This document shows positions 6,930-58,956 of a stretch of DNA of 64,000 nucleotides, in pieces (within the stretch, counting starts at the first letter, position 1; each line of letters begins with the position of its first letter). Source of the stretch: Erythrobacter sp. CCH5-A1 (GTDB lineage: Bacteria > Pseudomonadota > Alphaproteobacteria > Sphingomonadales > Sphingomonadaceae); NCBI RefSeq assembly GCF_001557115.1, contig NZ_LSKQ01000125.1, positions 1-64,000 on the forward strand, read 5' to 3'. The notes under the pieces were generated by a model that worked only from the letters and a program-made list of their open reading frames with translations, was not told the DNA's origin and did no database searches. Position numbers and translations under genes: made by a program.

Positions 6930-7870
6930 GCCGCCTCCGCCTGCTTGCCGAGCAGGCCGACGAAGATGTCCTCGAGCGAGCTGTCGTGAATGTCGAGACT
7001 GGTGAAGGCGATCCCTGCGCGGGTCAGCGCCTGAGTGAGCTGCGCGACCTCGGCCCGGCCCTTGCCCTGCCCGTTCCCGCCGCGATAGGTGAACCGGGTG
7101 CCGCCCTCGGACAGTTCGAGCGCGAAGTCCGCCAGTGCCTCGGGCAGCTGCGCCAGCGGCGCTGCCAGATCGATCACCGCCTCGGTGGTGCCGAGCCGCT
7201 CCATCATCGCGCGCTTTTCATCGACCATCAGAATGCGTCCGCCCTGGATGATGCCAACCCGGTCGGCCATTTCCTCGGCTTCCTCGATATAGTGGGTGGT
7301 GAGGATGATGGTGACGCCGCGTTCCTTGAGGGCCGCGATCTGCTCCCACATGCCCTTGCGCAGTTCCACGTCCACCCCGGCGGTGGGTTCATCGAGGAAC
7401 AGCAGCTCAGGCTCGTGCGCCAGCGCCTTGGCGATCAGCACGCGGCGCTTCATCCCGCCGGACAGCGCGCGGATCTGGGCGTCCTTCTTGTCCCAGAGGG
7501 AAAGGCCTTTCAGAATATCCTCGAGCCGCGCGGGATCGTAGGGGTTGCCGAAAAGGCCCTGCGAATAGGCGACCGCGCGCCACACGGTCTCGAACATGTC
7601 GGTCGCCAGTTCCTGCGGGACGAGGCCGATCCGCGCTCGCGCCGCGCGCCAGTCATTCGACAGGTCTTTCCCGAAGGCGGTGATGGTCCCGCCCGAGGGC
7701 CGGACCAGCCCGCACACCGCGCCGATCAGCGTGGTCTTGCCTGCCCCGTTGGGCCCGAGCAGTGCGAAGATCTCGCCCTGCCGGATATCGAGATCGACCG
7801 AATCGAGCGCGCGCGGGCCGTTCCTGTAGGTCTTGGTCAGACCGCGGATCGACAGGATGGGTTCATGCAT
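6926..7870 (-). CDS. ABC transporter ATP-binding protein
   Basis: A 314-aa nucleotide-binding subunit. Walker A is GPNGAGKTT at residues 39-47, the signature is LSGGMKRR, Walker B is [13 protein letters not shown], and the H-loop follows in [10 protein letters not shown]. The ~80 residues after the core form a DrrA/CcmA-like C-terminal extension. It starts 9 bp after queA ends and overlaps its permease by 4 bp, so it is probably in the queA operon although functionally unrelated. It energises the permease at the inner membrane. Confidence 0.93.
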
Positions 7871-30276: not shown

Positions 30277-32211
30277 ATGCGTTCGATGATCTTCGTTGCC
30301 TTGCTGCTCGGCACCTCGCCGCTTGCGGCACAGATCGCCACGCCGGAACGGCCGGTGACCGATCCCAAGACGCTGACCTCCCCCGCCAACCCCGATGCGC
30401 GCGCCGTGCCTCTGGAGGATATCGGCAATTCGCGCGGGGTCGGCGGCGTCACGTGGAGCGCCGACGGGAAGCACGTCTTCCTCTCGACCAACCTCACCGG
30501 GCGCTACAACATCTGGCGCACCGATGCGGACGGCAGCTGGCCGCTGCAGATGACCCAGTCGGACGAATCGCAGAACGGCCTCGCCGCCTCGCCCGATGGC
30601 AAGTGGCTCTATTTCACCCAGGATAATGGCGGGGACGAGTATTACGATCTCTACCGCGTGCCCGCCAGCGGCGGCGCCGTCGAGCGGGTGACCAACACGC
30701 CCGATCTCAGCGAGCGCGGCATGGTCCCCGGCGGCGCGGACGGGCTGATCGCCTTCTCGATCAAGAAGAAGAGCGAAGCGCAAGGCAACCTCGCCGTGCT
30801 CGCGCCCGATGGCAGCGTCCGGGTGCTCACCGCCGAGGCCGATCCCGACTACGAATGGAGCCCGCGCGTCTGGGCCGATGGCGGCAAGACCATTTACGCG
30901 TTGCGCGACAAGGTCGATTCCACCACCACCGAAATCTGGCGGGTCGATGTCGCCTCCGGCAAGGCGACGAGGGTTCTGGGGCAGCCGAACACGATCTTCC
31001 GGCTCGCCGATGTCAGCCCCGACGGCAAGTGGCTCGCGGTCACCACCGACATGGATATCGGACGTCCGCGCGCCGGGCTCTACGATCTTGCCACGGGCCA
31101 GTGGAAATGGCTGAAGCCGATCGTGTGGGACCAGAACGCACTGCGCTTCACCCGCGACGGCAAGGCGCTGATCACCGAGGACAGCGACGATCTGCGCAGC
31201 ACACTGGTGCTGCACGATCTGGCGACCGGCACCGCGCGGCCGCTGAAATTGCCGCAAGGGATCAACTTCACATCGGCCAGCGAACCGCGCTCGCCCGACG
31301 GCACATCGCTGCTGGTGGTCAACATGGCCGCCAACGTCACGGGCGAATTGAACCGCTACGACCTTGCCACCGACACCGTGACCCCGATCACCCAGCTCGC
31401 GCTCGCGAGCGTCCGGCCCGAAGCGCTCGCCAGCTCGCAGCAGGTGACCTACACCAGCTTCGACGGCACCCGGATCAGCGCGCTCGTCACCATGCCCGCC
31501 AACCTCAAGCGCGACGGCAGCAACCCCGCGATCGTGCTCCCCCACGGCGGACCGACCGGCAAGACCGACGACTATTTCGACGATGTCGCCGCAGCCCTCG
31601 CGAGCCGGGGCTATATCATCATCGCCCCCAACTTCCGCGGCTCGACCGGCTACGGCAAGGACTTCCAGGCCGCCAATTACAACGATCTGGGCGGCGGCGA
31701 TCTCAAGGACGTGATCGCCGCCAAGCAGTTCCTCGTCGCCAGCGGCTATGTCGACCCCAAGCGCGTCGGCATCTTCGGCGGGTCCTACGGCGGGTTCATG
31801 ACGCTGATGGCGCTGGGCAAGACGCCCGACGAATTCGCCGCCGGGGTGCAGTGGTTCGGCATCATCAACTGGCGCACCATGTATCGCGACATGGACGAGG
31901 TGCTGAAGGCCTATCTGCGGAGCCTGATGGGCACCCCCGAGGAGAATCCCGAAGGCTACGACCGCGCCTCGCCGCTCACTTATATCGCTGAGGCCAAGGC
32001 ACCACTGCTCAGTCTTCAGGGCGAGAACGACATCCGCGTGCCGAGGGGCCAAGCGCAGGAGGTCGAGGACATCCTCAAGGCCAAGGGCCGCACGGTCGAA
32101 ACGGTATTCTACCCACTCGAGGGCCACGGCTTCAGAAAGCGCGAGAACCAGCTGGATTCATTGAAGCGCACGGTCGAATGGTTCGACCGCTACCTCAAGC
32201 CTGCTAAGTGA
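30277..32211 (+). CDS. S9 family prolyl-oligopeptidase-type peptidase, exported
   Basis: A 644-aa serine peptidase with a signal peptide (MRSMIFVALLLGTSPLAAQ, cleavage near 18). The N-terminal two-thirds is a WD40-like beta-propeller (WSADGKHVFLSTNLTGRYNI, SPDGKWLYFTQD, SPDGKWLAVTTD repeats); the alpha/beta-hydrolase part has the nucleophile in GIFGGSYGGFMTLM, the Asp in LQGENDIRVPRGQ and the His in PLEGHGFRKREN. It probably cleaves short peptides in the periplasm. GGGGGGGA precedes the ATG. The amidohydrolase gene overlaps its stop region. Confidence 0.93.
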   Translation: MRSMIFVALLLGTSPLAAQIATPERPVTDPKTLTSPANPDARAVPLEDIGNSRGVGGVTWSADGKHVFLSTNLTGRYNIWRTDADGSWPLQMTQSDESQNGLAASPDGKWLYFTQDNGGDEYYDLYRVPASGGAVERVTNTPDLSERGMVPGGADGLIAFSIKKKSEAQGNLAVLAPDGSVRVLTAEADPDYEWSPRVWADGGKTIYALRDKVDSTTTEIWRVDVASGKATRVLGQPNTIFRLADVSPDGKWLAVTTDMDIGRPRAGLYDLATGQWKWLKPIVWDQNALRFTRDGKALITEDSDDLRSTLVLHDLATGTARPLKLPQGINFTSASEPRSPDGTSLLVVNMAANVTGELNRYDLATDTVTPITQLALASVRPEALASSQQVTYTSFDGTRISALVTMPANLKRDGSNPAIVLPHGGPTGKTDDYFDDVAAALASRGYIIIAPNFRGSTGYGKDFQAANYNDLGGGDLKDVIAAKQFLVASGYVDPKRVGIFGGSYGGFMTLMALGKTPDEFAAGVQWFGIINWRTMYRDMDEVLKAYLRSLMGTPEENPEGYDRASPLTYIAEAKAPLLSLQGENDIRVPRGQAQEVEDILKAKGRTVETVFYPLEGHGFRKRENQLDSLKRTVEWFDRYLKPAK

Positions 32212-32222
32212 AGGCGGCGCGC

Positions 32223-33263
32223 ATGACCGAAGACATCCTCGAACCCGATCTGCCGATCATCGATCCGCACCATCACCTGTGGGACCTGCGCGCGCTGGTG
32301 GGGATGTTCCCTGAGCCCCACCACCCCTTCATCGCCGCCATCGCGCCGCACGCGCATTACACCTTCGACCAGCTCCACGCGCACATGACGAGCGGCCACA
32401 AGATCGTCGCCACGGTCTTCATGGAGTGCGGCGCCTTCTACAACGGCGCCTATGGCGATGCGCTGAAGGTGGTCGGCGAGGTCGAATATGTGAACGGCGT
32501 CGCGGCGCAATCGGCGAGCGGGCTTTACGGCCCGGCGCGCTACTGCGCAGCGATCGTGGGCCATGCCGACCTTTCGCGCGGGGCAGCTGCGGGAGCGGTG
32601 CTCGATGCGCTGCAAGCCGCCTCGCCGCGCTTCCGGGGCATCCGGCACGCCGCCGCTTGGGACGCCGACCCGCAGGTGCTGGGAGCGCCGTTCCACCATC
32701 CTGAAGGCCTCTACCGCGACGCCACCTTCCGCGAGGGTTTTGCTGAGCTCGGCAAGCGAGGCCTCACCTTCGATGCCTGGCTGCTCGAGCCGCAGCTGCC
32801 CGACGTGATCGACCTTGCGCGCGCCTTCCCCGATCAGCCGATCTGCCTCGACCATGTCGGCACGCCGGTGGGGCTCGGGAGCTACAAGGGCACCTTGCAC
32901 GAACGCTTCGACGAATGGCGCCGCAATATCCGCGAACTCGCCAAGTGCGAGAACGTCGTCGTCAAGCTCGGCGGCCTCGCCATGGCCTTCTGCGCCCTGC
33001 CCGAGGACGGCCCCAGTGCGGGCCATTCGTCGGAGCACCTCGCCGCCCTGTGGCGCCCCTATATCGAGACCTGCATCGAGGCTTTCGGCCCGGGCCGCGC
33101 GATGTTCGAGAGCAATTACCCGGTCGACTACTGGGGCGCGGACTATGCGGTGCTGTGGAACGCCTTCAAGCGCCTCGCCCGCTCGGCCAGCGCCGAGGAG
33201 AAGGTCGCGCTCTTCGCAGGCAACGCGGCGCGGTTCTACGGGATCGAGGACGTGCTCGCATAG
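32223..33263 (+). CDS. Amidohydrolase family protein (COG3618 type)
   Basis: A 346-aa metal-dependent hydrolase with a TIM-barrel amidohydrolase-2 layout: IIDPHHHLWDLRAL near the start (metal His pair), FRGIRHAAAWDADP, ICLDHVGTPVG, VVVKLGGLAMAF and MFESNYPVDYWGADY with the catalytic Asp near the end. Relatives include 2-pyrone-4,6-dicarboxylate lactonase and L-fuconolactonase; the substrate here is unknown. The ATG at 32223 has GAAGG 9 nt upstream; a GTG at 32208 overlaps the previous stop. A repeat element follows its 3' end. Confidence 0.88.
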   Translation: MTEDILEPDLPIIDPHHHLWDLRALVGMFPEPHHPFIAAIAPHAHYTFDQLHAHMTSGHKIVATVFMECGAFYNGAYGDALKVVGEVEYVNGVAAQSASGLYGPARYCAAIVGHADLSRGAAAGAVLDALQAASPRFRGIRHAAAWDADPQVLGAPFHHPEGLYRDATFREGFAELGKRGLTFDAWLLEPQLPDVIDLARAFPDQPICLDHVGTPVGLGSYKGTLHERFDEWRRNIRELAKCENVVVKLGGLAMAFCALPEDGPSAGHSSEHLAALWRPYIETCIEAFGPGRAMFESNYPVDYWGADYAVLWNAFKRLARSASAEEKVALFAGNAARFYGIEDVLA

Positions 33264-33339
33264 CGCACTTTCCTACAGCGCCCGGCACGAGGTATGGATG
33301 AGCTTGCACCTTTCGCGTGCCTGATCGGCGGCAAGGGAA

Positions 33340-33449
33340 GAAAACGCCGCGCACAGTGTCAACTTCGGTTTTTCGTCACATCCTTCTGATTATATGAGAT
33401 AATTCCTGTAGGAATGCGAAGTTTACAGTGTCAACTTTGTAAACTTCGC
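33340..33449 (+). repeat. Composite palindromic element, copy 1
   Basis: Three hairpins in a row: GAAAACGCCG (33340-33349) with CGGTTTTTC (33366-33374, imperfect) around AGTGTCAACTT; ATTCC-TGTA-GGAAT (33402-33415); and a perfect 12-bp arm GCGAAGTTTACA / TGTAAACTTCGC around GTGTCAACTT (33416-33449). Copy 2 at 57783-57891 is the same element in reverse. The 34-bp hairpin is identical in both; the spacer of ~28 bp is not conserved. The first hairpin, with its T tract, could terminate the amidohydrolase gene. Confidence 0.8.
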
Positions 33450-33538: not shown

Positions 33539-34543
33539 ATGCCCCTTCCCGTCCCCTTCGATCGCCTGCGCCTGCCGCTGATCGGATCGCCGCTGTTCAT
33601 CGTCTCCGGCCCCGAACTGGTTATCGCGCAGTGCAAGGCGGGGATCATCGGCAGCTTCCCGGCGCTGAACGCGCGGCCGCAGTCGCAGCTCGACGAATGG
33701 CTCCACCAGATCACCGAGGAACTCAGCCAGCACAACCGCGCGAACCCCGATCGCCCGGCCGCGCCCTATGCGGTCAACCAGATCGTCCACAAGACCAACG
33801 ACCGCATCGAGGCCGACATGGCGACCTGCGAGAAGTGGCAGGTGCCGATGGTCATCACCTCGCTGGGCGCGCGCGAGGAGGTCTATCAGGCGGTCAGGAA
33901 CTGGGGCGGGATCACGATGCACGACGTGATCAACAACCGCTTCGCGATGAAGGCGATCGAGAAGGGCGCGACCGGGCTTATCCCCGTCGCCGCAGGCGCG
34001 GGCGGCCATGCGGGGTCGCTCTCGCCCTTTGCCCTCATGCAGGAAATCCGCGAGTGGTTCGACGGCCTCGTCGCGCTCTCGGGCGCGGTCGGGCACGGGG
34101 CGACGATCCTTGCAGCCCAGGCCCTGCGCGCCGACTTCGCCTATTGCGGCAGCGCCTTCATCGCCACCCGCGAAGCGAACGCGACCGAGGCCTACAAGAA
34201 CGGCATCGTCGCAGGCTCGTCCGAGGGGATCGTCTACACCAACCTCTTCACCGGGGTGCACGGCAACTACCTCAGGTCTTCGATCGAGGCCGCGGGGATG
34301 GACCCCGACAACCTCCCCGAAAGCGACCCCAGCAAGATGAACTTCGGCAGCGGCGGCAACACAAAGGCGAAGGCCTGGAAGGACATCTGGGGCTCGGGCC
34401 AGGGGATCGGGACGATCAAGGAAGTCGGCACGGTCGAGGATCTCGTCGCCCGGTTCGAGCGCGAATATCACGCGGCCAAGGCGCGGCTGGCGGGCAATTC
34501 GGGCTACGCGTCGTGGGGTGCGATGGCCGAGGCGGCCGAGTAA
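33539..34543 (+). CDS. Nitronate monooxygenase-like flavoprotein
   Basis: A 334-aa TIM-barrel flavoprotein of the nitronate monooxygenase/2-nitropropane dioxygenase family. LPLIGSPLFIVSGPELVIAQ opens it; AGIIGSFPALNARPQSQLDEW, VITSLGAREEVYQAV, GLIPVAAGAGGHAGSLSPFA and AYCGSAFIATREANA are the FMN-binding and family motifs. Nitronate oxidation is the known reaction; many bacterial homologues are uncharacterised. AAGGAG lies 6 nt before the ATG at 33539. A repeat element with TGTAAAC half-sites lies ~90 bp upstream and could act as an operator. Confidence 0.9.
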   Translation: MPLPVPFDRLRLPLIGSPLFIVSGPELVIAQCKAGIIGSFPALNARPQSQLDEWLHQITEELSQHNRANPDRPAAPYAVNQIVHKTNDRIEADMATCEKWQVPMVITSLGAREEVYQAVRNWGGITMHDVINNRFAMKAIEKGATGLIPVAAGAGGHAGSLSPFALMQEIREWFDGLVALSGAVGHGATILAAQALRADFAYCGSAFIATREANATEAYKNGIVAGSSEGIVYTNLFTGVHGNYLRSSIEAAGMDPDNLPESDPSKMNFGSGGNTKAKAWKDIWGSGQGIGTIKEVGTVEDLVARFEREYHAAKARLAGNSGYASWGAMAEAAE

Positions 34544-56901: not shown

Positions 56902-57774
56902 ATGTCCACGACCTTCCAGCTCGACACCAGCACAAGCCGCGCCAACCCCACGCCTGCCCCGATGCGGCGGCTCACCGTGCCCGCGATCCGGGCGCGCAAG
57001 ACCGACGGGGTGACGGGCGAGCCGCTGGTGATGCTCACCGCCTACACCGCCCGCCAGGCCCAGCTGCTCGATGCGCATTGCGACCTCTTGCTGGTGGGCG
57101 ATTCCCTCGGCCAGGTGATCTACGGCCTGCCCTCGACCGTGCCGGTCACGCTCGAGATGATGGCCAACCACGGCGCGGCGGTGGTGCGGGGTTCCTACCA
57201 TTCGGTCGTCGTGATCGACATGCCTTTCGGCAGCTACGAGGCTTCGCCCCAGCAGGCTTTCGAGAGCGCGGCCTTCCTGATGAAGCAGACGGGCGCTGCT
57301 GCGGTGAAGCTCGAAGGCGGAGCGGCAATGGCGCCGACGGTCGCCTTCCTCAACAGCCGCGGCATTCCGGTGATGGGGCACGTGGGCCTCACCCCGCAGG
57401 CGGTCAACGTGCTCGGCGGTTACGGAGCGCGCGGCCGCTCCGATGCCGAGGCCGAGAAGATCGTTTCCGACGCCAAAGCGCTGGACGAGGCCGGGGCCTT
57501 CGCCATCGTCATCGAAGGCGTGGTCGAGCCGATCGCCATCGCCGCCACCGAGGCCGTCTCCTGCCCCACCATCGGCATCGGCGCCTCGGCCCGGTGCGAC
57601 GGGCAGGTGCTGGTCACCGAAGACATGCTCGGCATGTTCGAGCGGGTGCCGCGCTTCGTGAAGCGTTATGAGGACATCGCAGGCGTGATCGACCGTACCG
57701 TGGCCCAATATGCCGAGGAAGTGCGCGCCCGCACCTTCCCCACGGCCGACCAGACCTACCAGCCCAAGGCCTGA
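56902..57774 (+). CDS. panB: 3-Methyl-2-oxobutanoate hydroxymethyltransferase
   Basis: A 290-aa PanB, the first step of pantothenate synthesis, turning 2-ketoisovalerate into ketopantoate. VMLTAYTARQAQLLDAHCDL with the metal Asp, LLVGDSLGQVIYG, VIDMPFGSYEASP, AVKLEGGAAMAPT, MGHVGLTPQAVN and CPTIGIGASARCDGQVLV are the family signatures. It uses the same 2-ketoisovalerate that LeuA consumes. A repeat element follows within 10 bp. coaD in the window acts later in the same route to CoA. Confidence 0.97.
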   Translation: MSTTFQLDTSTSRANPTPAPMRRLTVPAIRARKTDGVTGEPLVMLTAYTARQAQLLDAHCDLLLVGDSLGQVIYGLPSTVPVTLEMMANHGAAVVRGSYHSVVVIDMPFGSYEASPQQAFESAAFLMKQTGAAAVKLEGGAAMAPTVAFLNSRGIPVMGHVGLTPQAVNVLGGYGARGRSDAEAEKIVSDAKALDEAGAFAIVIEGVVEPIAIAATEAVSCPTIGIGASARCDGQVLVTEDMLGMFERVPRFVKRYEDIAGVIDRTVAQYAEEVRARTFPTADQTYQPKA

Positions 57775-57782
57775 ATTCGCCT

Positions 57783-57891
57783 GCGAAGTTTACAAAGTTG
57801 ACACTGTAAACTTCGCAATCCTACAGGATTTCTCTTTGCATTTCATTGTCTTGCATCGCAAAAGCGAAGTTGACACTGTGCATTCGCTTTT
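57783..57891 (-). repeat. Composite palindromic element, copy 2
   Basis: The inverse of the element at 33340-33449. It begins with the identical 34-bp hairpin (GCGAAGTTTACA...TGTAAACTTCGC, 57783-57816), then AATCC-TACA-GGATT (57817-57830), a 29-bp spacer, and AAAAGCGAA (57860-57868) with TTCGCTTTT (57883-57891) around GTTGACACTGTGCA. It fills the gap between convergent panB and the BASS gene, where the last hairpin, with T tracts on both strands, can act as a bidirectional terminator. Confidence 0.8.
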
Positions 57892-57957
57892 CGTGTCCGA
57901 TCCCTTGCGAGGCCGCTTTGGCTGACAGTCCGAACGAACCGCTTCGTCATAGCGCGC

Positions 57958-58956
57958 TCAGCCCCCTGTAGGAAAGGCCCCGCTCCGTCCCCCGCGCGCC
58001 AGACGCATCGCCAGCGGCGCGGCGAGCACCAGCTGGGCAAGGTGATAGAGCAGCAGCGGCGCGATCACGAAACCGGCGCTTGCGGGCGGGAACAGGATCG
58101 CCGCCAAGGGCGCGCCGACCGCGACGCTCTTCTGCGAGCCGGCAAAGAGGAACGCGATCCGGTCACCGCGCGGCAGGCCCAGCAGACGCCCCGTGCCCCA
58201 CGCCGCACCCAGTGCCAGCCCCAGCATCGCCAGCACCAGCACCACCAGCGCGGCCCAGTCGGTGCCGGAGAACATCGTCGCCAGCCCCTGCTCGACCGCG
58301 CCCGAAAAGGCGACATAGACCGCAATCCCGATCACCGACCGGTCGAGCCAGGCGGCGGTCGCCTTGTGGGCGATCAGATGGTCGATGAAACGGTCCTGCA
58401 CCGCCTGCCCGATGGCGAAGGGCAGGAGGAGGATCAGGAAAATCCGGCCGATCGCCTCCAGCCCCACATCCGCAGCGCCCACCCCGCCGACAAGCGCAAA
58501 CAGCGGCGCGCTCACCGCCACGCCCGCGATATTGATCAGCGCCGCGCCGACCACCGCGAGCGCGACATTGCCCTCGGCAAGGCTGGTGTAGGACGTCGCC
58601 GATTGCACGGTCGAAGGCAGGCAGCCGAGAAACACGAAGCCCAGCGCCACCAGCGGCGGCAGCACCGCGCCCGCGATCATGCCGAAGCCGAGCCCCAGCA
58701 ATGTCATCGCACCGAACACGAACAGCATCAGCGGCCCGAAATAGCGCCAATTGGCGAGGCCCTTGGCGATCTCGCTGCGGCGGATGCGCATGCCGTTGAC
58801 GAGGAACAGCACGAAAATCCCGACATTGGAGACCGTCGTCGCGGTCGCCCTCGCCTCGCCGGCCGCGGGCAGCACCAGCGCGAGCGCGGTCGCGATCACC
58901 AGAACGGCGATCATCGGGTCGCGCAGGAAGGGGAAGATTTGCAAAAGGCGGGACAT
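57958..58956 (-). CDS. Bile acid:sodium symporter family transporter (YfeH-like)
   Basis: A 332-aa membrane protein with about ten hydrophobic segments. FVFLGCLPSTVQSATSYTSL and EGNVALAVVGAALINIAGV form the first crossover, while FLFAGSQKSVAVGAPLAAIL is the second, with the Gln-Lys/Ser pair typical of SBF-like proteins. It probably carries an organic anion with sodium; the substrate is unknown. It starts 45 bp after the TPR gene ends, possibly the end of the prs operon. Confidence 0.9.
   Translation of the reverse strand: MSRLLQIFPFLRDPMIAVLVIATALALVLPAAGEARATATTVSNVGIFVLFLVNGMRIRRSEIAKGLANWRYFGPLMLFVFGAMTLLGLGFGMIAGAVLPPLVALGFVFLGCLPSTVQSATSYTSLAEGNVALAVVGAALINIAGVAVSAPLFALVGGVGAADVGLEAIGRIFLILLLPFAIGQAVQDRFIDHLIAHKATAAWLDRSVIGIAVYVAFSGAVEQGLATMFSGTDWAALVVLVLAMLGLALGAAWGTGRLLGLPRGDRIAFLFAGSQKSVAVGAPLAAILFPPASAGFVIAPLLLYHLAQLVLAAPLAMRLARGGRSGAFPTGG

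Follow-up and report, generated by a model that had tools for sequence, protein, structure and literature searches.

Results

The 64-kb stretch of DNA analysed here (the window) carries two copies of an element of ~180-195 bp on opposite strands. Copy 1 (33269..33449, minus strand) lies between an amidohydrolase gene (32208-33263, +) and a nitronate monooxygenase-family gene (33539-34543, +), and copy 2 (57783..57975, plus strand) between panB (56902-57774, +) and an SBF-like transporter gene (57958-58956, -). Both contain the 34-bp core GCGAAGTTTACA-N10-TGTAAACTTCGC, at 33416-33449 and, inverted, at 57783-57816, as an earlier note on this DNA had reported; at up to three mismatches the core has two matches in the window against a shuffle mean of 0.00. 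The conserved stretch extends to a third motif, GTTGACACTGT, and the 13-mer AAGTTGACACTGT repeats at the far arm of each copy, 72 bp away (33353-33365 and 33425-33437, minus strand; 57795-57807 and 57867-57879, plus strand), with six window matches at up to two mismatches against 0.23 expected. The element is bounded at one end by TTTCCTAC (33269-33276, +; 57968-57975, -), which occurs nowhere else in the 64-kb window. The earlier note had described a composite element of ~110 bp. Its composite nature stands, while the size has to be enlarged to the full extent up to TTTCCTAC. As described below, the earlier note had overlooked that one end is promoter-like, that the array holds an IHF-like box, that a spacing of 72-73 bp is kept throughout and that the family is linked to genes for the terminase small subunit (terS).

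Each copy is built from short boxes. Copy 1 carries, on the minus strand, A3 (TTGACA, 33357..33362), the IHF-like box AATCAGAAGGATG with 8 of 9 consensus positions (33379..33391), the inverted box A2' (TGTAAA, 33422..33427), A2 (TTGACA, 33429..33434) and A1 (TTTACA, 33438..33443), while the promoter-like sequence TTTCCTAC-N16-TA at its end (33269..33294, +) is directed into the array. Copy 2 has, on the plus strand, A1 (TTTACA, 57789..57794), A2 (TTGACA, 57798..57803), the inverted A2' (TGTAAA, 57805..57810), the IHF-like box TTTCATTGTCTTG with 7 of 9 positions (57841..57853) and A3 (TTGACA, 57870..57875), and ends in the same promoter-like sequence directed into the array (57950..57975, -). 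The site of copy 1 is also filled in two other genomes, G001 (L064) and G002 (L049). No terS gene was found in the 64-kb window, and both copies are dispersed ones. At copy 2, the stop codon of the transporter gene is apparently supplied by the inserted element; in Erythrobacter oryzae the end of the transporter gene adjoins the panB stop.

The search for relatives that the earlier note had proposed uncovered a dispersed family extending beyond the two window copies. The exact core pattern matched only E. oryzae COR-2, at four places. A looser (class I) pattern was found in 10 of the 100 genomes of the Erythrobacter genus group, a count that, like the set of 46 copies below, was selected by an exact box pattern, and a sequence profile, applied to no more than 13 candidates in each genome so that copy numbers are lower bounds, gave matches in 29 of 298 genomes of the family. 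One common anatomy is seen in 46 copies (eight genomes and the window), although box conservation within this set is partly by construction owing to its selection. The array starts with CGAAG-TTGACA (A1) and AAG-TTGACA (A2), followed one to three bases on by the inverted TGTCAA (A2'). A spacer of drifting sequence and near-constant length then leads to CGAAG-TTGACA-CTT (A3), the distance from A2 to A3 being 72 or 73 bp or about seven helical turns. Among 31 copies of equal length a conserved block of ~99 bp with abrupt edges on both sides is visible. Read from the promoter-like end, the order is TTTCCTAC-N15/16-TA, A3, IHF-like box, A2', A2 and A1; as judged from sequence, A1, A2 and A3 are direct and A2' is inverted throughout the 46-copy set, although A2' is weak or absent in some copies (e.g. 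L104). The exact class I and class III array patterns had no matches in viral contigs, so no phage source was found, and no earlier description of the family was found among the papers listed by searches of open-licence PMC text.

Arrays of a TTCACA class were also seen in E. oryzae (L069, L070, L139-L145), alongside the TTTACA/TTGACA class in the same genome. They have a common inner ATTCCTACAGGAAT-like palindrome, some of them occupy sites that hold the TTGACA class in G002, and no separate terS adjoins them among the loci seen. Two more dispersed repeat families were noted in G002 (L058:7083-7167 and 7190-7300), both with many copies in G078 and G070; the first is ~84 bp long and present at tens of places on both strands, the second ~110 bp long.

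At the right end of the array, GTAGGA, mostly as TGTAGGAAA, lies 63-125 bp past A3 in 50 of 57 copies. The opposite strand of TGTAGGAAA is TTTCCTAC, whose hexamer TTTCCT is followed by a TA at a distance of 17 bp, or 18 bp in the two copies of the window, with T at +22 in 35/50 and A at +23 in 38/50 copies. This common motif has the geometry of a promoter reading into the array and suggests promoter activity. Near the expected start, a GCTCTTT..CATCGTC stretch is found in a good part of the copies, and C-rich tracts occur in many G002 copies. TTTCCTAC-N14/16-TA was also sought in 12 genomes against a reversed control, with a sample of the places read. It was clearly above the control in G001, G002, G078, G090, G052 and G347 and not above it in five genomes without the element; in the array-rich G381 it was not commoner than the control (8 vs 11). 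Further, TTTCCTAC precedes a gene of the GTA_holin_3TM family in G001 (PF11351, 3.5e-30), a family also seen in G003; it is likewise located ahead of the terS gene type terS-A (PHROG 4044, 8.4e-16). In G090 it stands ahead of an array in 12 of 18 fetched regions, which were chosen from 42 motif matches minus those at arrays already known, and one of these regions has a holin of the same sequence type.

Taking the IHF consensus to be WATCARNNNNTTR, we found 17 of 56 spacers to match it at 8-9 of 9 positions, where shuffled sequences gave 2.7 on average and 8 at most. The IHF-like box begins 24 bp before A3 in 28 of the 38 non-G090 copies with at least seven matching positions, and no such box was seen in the spacers of the G090 copies.

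Paired changes in the hairpin stems had been read in the earlier note as a sign of RNA structure, a claim that could not be upheld. Among 18 E. oryzae-type copies, the inner ATTCC-TACA-GGAAT palindrome has complementary arms in 10, both window copies among them, and broken ones in eight. For A2:A2' no two-sided change was seen across the 46 copies. A1:A2' has one (six rows) in a single lineage consisting of the window and E. oryzae, where A2' is shifted by two bases so that the pair is not in true register. An Rfam search of the window at gathering score returned tRNA only and no family at the element. With no compensatory base changes in the stems, a structured regulatory RNA was rejected, and the suggestion of a regulatory RNA or terminator was not borne out as the main idea.

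A comparison of orthologous sites was carried out for G002 and G078, in which 13 of 17 G002 sites are filled at the same place as judged by both flanks and a fourteenth as judged by one flank. The G078 loci were fetched by pattern or by BLAST to the G002 copies, and identities were compared by Fisher tests; A2' and the IHF box were not demanded by the pattern. Over the 13 orthologous pairs, 128/130 positions of A2' and 100/104 of the IHF core are identical, against 242/286 and 49/65 in the two spacer parts (together 291/351) and 1508/1781 in the left flank. Since boxes and IHF core are kept while the spacers drift at shared sites, these differences are not those of neutral decay and point to selection on the boxes. 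For an element that is composite, dispersed and selected, a multi-site protein-binding array is the best general class, in line with the multi-site operator that the earlier note had listed among its options.

Presence and absence were also compared, as the earlier note had suggested. The panB copy is missing in four relatives (G001, G002, G078 and G070), in which the aligned ends of the two genes are only 7-14 bp apart, indicating that copies are gained or lost; no clear target-site duplication could be read at this empty site. The L063 site is filled in G002 and E. oryzae and empty in G078 and G070, where the neighbouring gene content differs too. In G090 the copies are homogenised. Genes beside the element are functionally diverse (28 proteins scanned) and include no transposase among the 28. 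Based on simple script-made gene calls, the A3-side gene is directed into the element in 35 of 46 copies (binomial p 5e-4) while the A1-side gene has no orientation bias (21 vs 25). Regulation of nearby genes was rejected because the flanking genes scanned are diverse, and a transposon because there are no inverted ends and no transposase among the flanking proteins scanned.

In lambda-like and headful phages, cos or pac lies at the 3' end of terS. With terS-C, a solo terS paralogue, as query, all 30 element-bearing genomes match at ≤1e-12, four of them only as another terS type. Of the 26 terS-C loci, 23 have an array at the 3' end of the gene according to profile R1, and the other three (L319-L321) have one that was recognised by eye. 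The best matches (L298-L323) range from E 1.9e-22 to 0.0078, and all arrays overlap the stop or follow it within ~240 bp. None of the four terS loci of other types has an array by profile R1. In 24 of the 26 loci, TTCCTAC is found upstream, at 32-138 bp from the stretch that matches terS-C. The 3' end of terS-A carries a different array class, GAGACA-cat-GAGACA-ctgTCC, again with two hexamers 9 bp apart. Of the 17 best loci (L226-L242), 16 have this class and the seventeenth has a variant; 14 of the 16 arrays begin 27-45 bp past the stop, and the other two are located within an extended reading frame. Among all 30 fetched terS-A matches (L226-L255), 17 carry the terS-A-type array, and dispersed copies of this class exist as well. 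With arrays at terS 3' ends and TTTCCTAC upstream, the general unit is TTTCCTAC-terS-array, and the dispersed elements are TTTCCTAC-array.

The dispersed arrays of a genome are similar to the one beside its terS-C. Their mean identity to it is 0.775, against 0.659 (sd 0.015) after permutation, a value reached in none of 100,000 genome permutations, where several genomes give one copy and kinship among genomes is ignored by the statistics. The own terS-C module has a mean rank of 6.3 of 26 over 25 sets (13.5 expected). The two window copies have a mean identity of 0.97 to the E. oryzae terS-C array, which ranks 1 of 26. The test left out the terS-adjacent copies L055, L065, L079, L178 and L120 and genomes without a terS-C array (e.g. 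G114, G335, G074); L097, L099 and L100 entered in re-fetched form, and the terS-C modules of G326, G310, G228, G116 and G264 came from a window scan and not from the profile. Box variants are likewise common to dispersed and terS-C arrays, such as GGTGACA in G192, G374 and G331, exact GGAAGTTGACAAAGTTGACACTACGTCACCCC in G269, TGTAAACCT in G270 and the TTTACA/TGTAAA variant in E. oryzae and the window. The pairing of boxes fails in G044, G116 and G264 (one copy each) and is neutral in G310 and G381. Based on these sequence comparisons, arrays that are cognate to TerS are well supported.

All 37 scanned terS-C relatives match the PHROG 4044 terminase small subunit. For the AlphaFold model of one of them (P0001; pLDDT 83.8, pTM 0.72), the top structure in the PDB is the small terminase of phage Sf6, a weak match (probability 0.96, E 0.11), and BFVD yields a viral protein named as a small terminase (E 3.9e-5); a PDB sequence search with terS-C gave nothing relevant. 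Among the listed homologues, those that are named are mostly hypothetical proteins and once a helix-turn-helix protein. In the genus group, terS-like genes are found in 87 of 100 genomes vs 10 of 100 for the class I pattern.

Several more terS-like genes (L256, L258, L259, L261, L263, L265, L268, L273, L274; 255-575 aa as read) have no evident 3'-end array. In G020, a genome unmatched by the class I pattern, a terS-C gene with a variant array and TTCCTAC was seen (L275), so the counts above understate the extent of the family. About 3 kb from terS-A in G078 there is a reading frame that looks by eye like a transposase gene (L207:5203-5901).

Lastly, the distribution of genes of gene transfer agents (GTAs) was analysed. 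GTA_TIM (PF13547) was found in none of 100 genomes and was replaced by DUF2460 and the GTA capsid gene as markers. The capsid gene is present in 24 of 30 element-bearing genomes vs none of eight controls, which were hand-chosen and seven of which are without a terS match; the six element-bearing genomes without a capsid match are G052, G090, G331, G326, G274 and G102. DUF2460 is found in 8 of 10 element genomes vs 38 of 90 others. The RcGTA-like cluster of E. oryzae opens with a gene for a TerS of PHROG 4044, a relative of the solo TerS, and continues with a large terminase and the capsid. No TTTCCTAC was seen ahead of the head-tail clusters of G001 and G078. A GTA-type holin gene with TTTCCTAC was seen in two genomes without a capsid match, G003 (L224), which also has no terS match, and G020 (L225; by similarity only).

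Discussion

The order and polarity of the boxes repeat those of lambda cosB, where three sites for TerS (gpNu1) are arranged as R3-IHF-R2-R1 within ~120 bp, R2 is inverted relative to R3 and R1, and folding of the DNA by IHF allows a TerS dimer to dock on both R3 and R2, according to the available part of the source (PMC4669245). Here, A3, the IHF-like box, the inverted A2' and A2/A1 follow in the same way, and at terS loci the array adjoins terS as cosB does. We therefore take the element as a cosB/pac-like start site which, by analogy, probably works like cosB. The present system differs from cosB in that each genome has many copies dispersed over its chromosome and every copy ends in a promoter-like sequence, that the boxes are shorter and one direct box is extra, and that the TerS belongs to PHROG 4044, another family. 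Reading of the alignments brought up no cosN-like cut site. Like the pac site of P22-type phages, the array is a candidate packaging start that would be recognised by the packaging machinery. Pseudo-pac look-alikes on the chromosome start packaging in generalized transduction by headful phages, as described in the part of the source at hand (PMC11226127); unlike such degenerate sites, the arrays are full, conserved and under selection.

On balance we favour, with moderate confidence, the reading that the copies scattered along the chromosome are cosB/pac-like arrays for solo TerS of the terS-C type, and that each has a promoter-like sequence of its own, of a kind shared with phage/GTA-type genes. 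The sequences themselves show the family and its constant architecture, box conservation at orthologous sites, the pairing of arrays with terS genes in position and sequence, and the common TTTCCTAC motif, whereas we infer promoter activity, binding of TerS and IHF, cutting and packaging at the arrays. Points against this reading are the six element-bearing genomes without a capsid match, the TTTCCTAC-bearing holin genes in two genomes without the capsid, the TTTCCTAC-TA count of G381, the genomes in which box pairing fails or is neutral, the missing IHF-like box in G090, the excess of terS-like genes over class I pattern matches, the TTCACA-class arrays of E. oryzae that have no separate terS beside them among the loci seen, the lack of exact arrays in viral contigs and the lack of a recognised cosN-like site. 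Once a GTA-linked regulon is switched on, the TTTCCTAC promoters would fire at terS and at the arrays. IHF would bend the spacer sharply and fold A3 onto A2'/A2/A1, and TerS oligomers could then dock on both arms and recruit the large terminase. Cutting nearby by the large terminase would begin headful packaging of the flanking chromosome, and with some twenty or more start sites packaging would be spread over the genome.

If solo TerS proteins had instead turned into transcription factors, the arrays would be operators or roadblocks on a short TTTCCTAC transcript and would play no role in packaging. The promoter-like motif with its 17-bp spacing, directed into the array (T in 35/50, A in 38/50), fits this, as does the GCTCTTT..CATCGTC stretch that a good share of copies carry around the expected start. 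Caulobacter GafY offers a precedent with 18 chromosomal sites besides the gafYZ and GTA promoters, 18/20 being common with IHF (PMC11150451, in the part available). However, because flanking genes are diverse in the 28 proteins scanned and A1-side orientation is unbiased (21 vs 25), no regulated target stands out, and the 3' end of terS is the place of cos or pac and not that of a promoter-operator, which makes a pure regulator network unlikely in our judgement. Far less probable still is a small RNA gene in which TTTCCTAC is the promoter of a C-rich RNA and A3 and A1/A2' form terminator hairpins. The A3-side gene directed into the element in 35/46 copies (p 5e-4) and the C-rich tracts in many G002 copies would agree with it, but there are no compensatory changes and no Rfam family above gathering score at the element, and boxes kept 72-73 bp apart, with drifting sequence and an IHF-like box in between, are a geometry of the DNA type. 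We regard such a gene as very improbable.

Recent copying of a non-autonomous repeat of the REPIN, BIME or MITE type, moved in trans, could also produce conserved copies. Empty sites at panB (four relatives) and at the L063 site (G078, G070) and the homogenised copies in G090 are in favour of mobility. In REP and BIME elements a GTAG or GTGG tetranucleotide stands at the foot of each palindrome; here, GTAG is found at the right end and not at the foot of the A1/A2' palindrome. GTAG is the tag of one REP superfamily, as far as the consulted part of the source goes (PMC3733652). On the other side, the ends (CGAAGTT.. and ..TGTAGGAAA) form no terminal inverted repeat, no convincing target duplication was seen, none of the 28 flanking proteins scanned is a transposase, and 13/17 G002 sites are filled in G078 by both flanks with boxes kept and spacers drifting. 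Overall, we consider a mobile repeat of this kind distinctly unlikely.

Turning back to the packaging arrays, a link to GTAs is likely, although not settled. In favour of a relation to RcGTA-type GTAs are the RcGTA-like capsid in most element-bearing genomes and the PHROG 4044 TerS in the E. oryzae cluster. Against it are the six element-bearing genomes without the capsid, the clusters of G001 and G078 with no TTTCCTAC ahead of them, the holin with TTTCCTAC in two genomes without the capsid, and terS-like genes that are far commoner than class I pattern matches (87 vs 10 of 100). The available portions of two sources (PMC6854486, PMC11841831) portray GTAs as devoid of a packaging initiation site, with a TerS that has no detectable DNA-binding domain, and Dinoroseobacter packaging as showing unexplained peaks. 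The candidate packaging sites and the putatively DNA-binding solo TerS found here would set the present system apart from GTAs as described there. Control of GTAs with IHF at about 20 chromosomal sites, as in the Caulobacter GafYZ/IHF regulon, would be a further likeness, while the GafYZ motifs (YBE, ZBE, -35 AATCAT) differ and TerS arrays are not mentioned in the available part of that report (PMC11150451).

In conclusion, we tentatively propose, as a possibility that the present data leave a little short of probable, that Erythrobacteraceae possess a GTA, or a GTA-linked packaging system, with dedicated start sites. These would consist of at least ~20 TerS-cognate, IHF-folded cosB-like arrays per genome with their own promoters, evolving in concert with solo DNA-binding TerS paralogues and possibly spreading or persisting through preferential packaging of nearby DNA. 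As GTAs have no known packaging site in the published views, to the extent that these were available, dedicated sites would be new. If true, TerS-cognate arrays would represent named and predictable packaging starts, and packaging preference could act as a selective force on chromosomal DNA.
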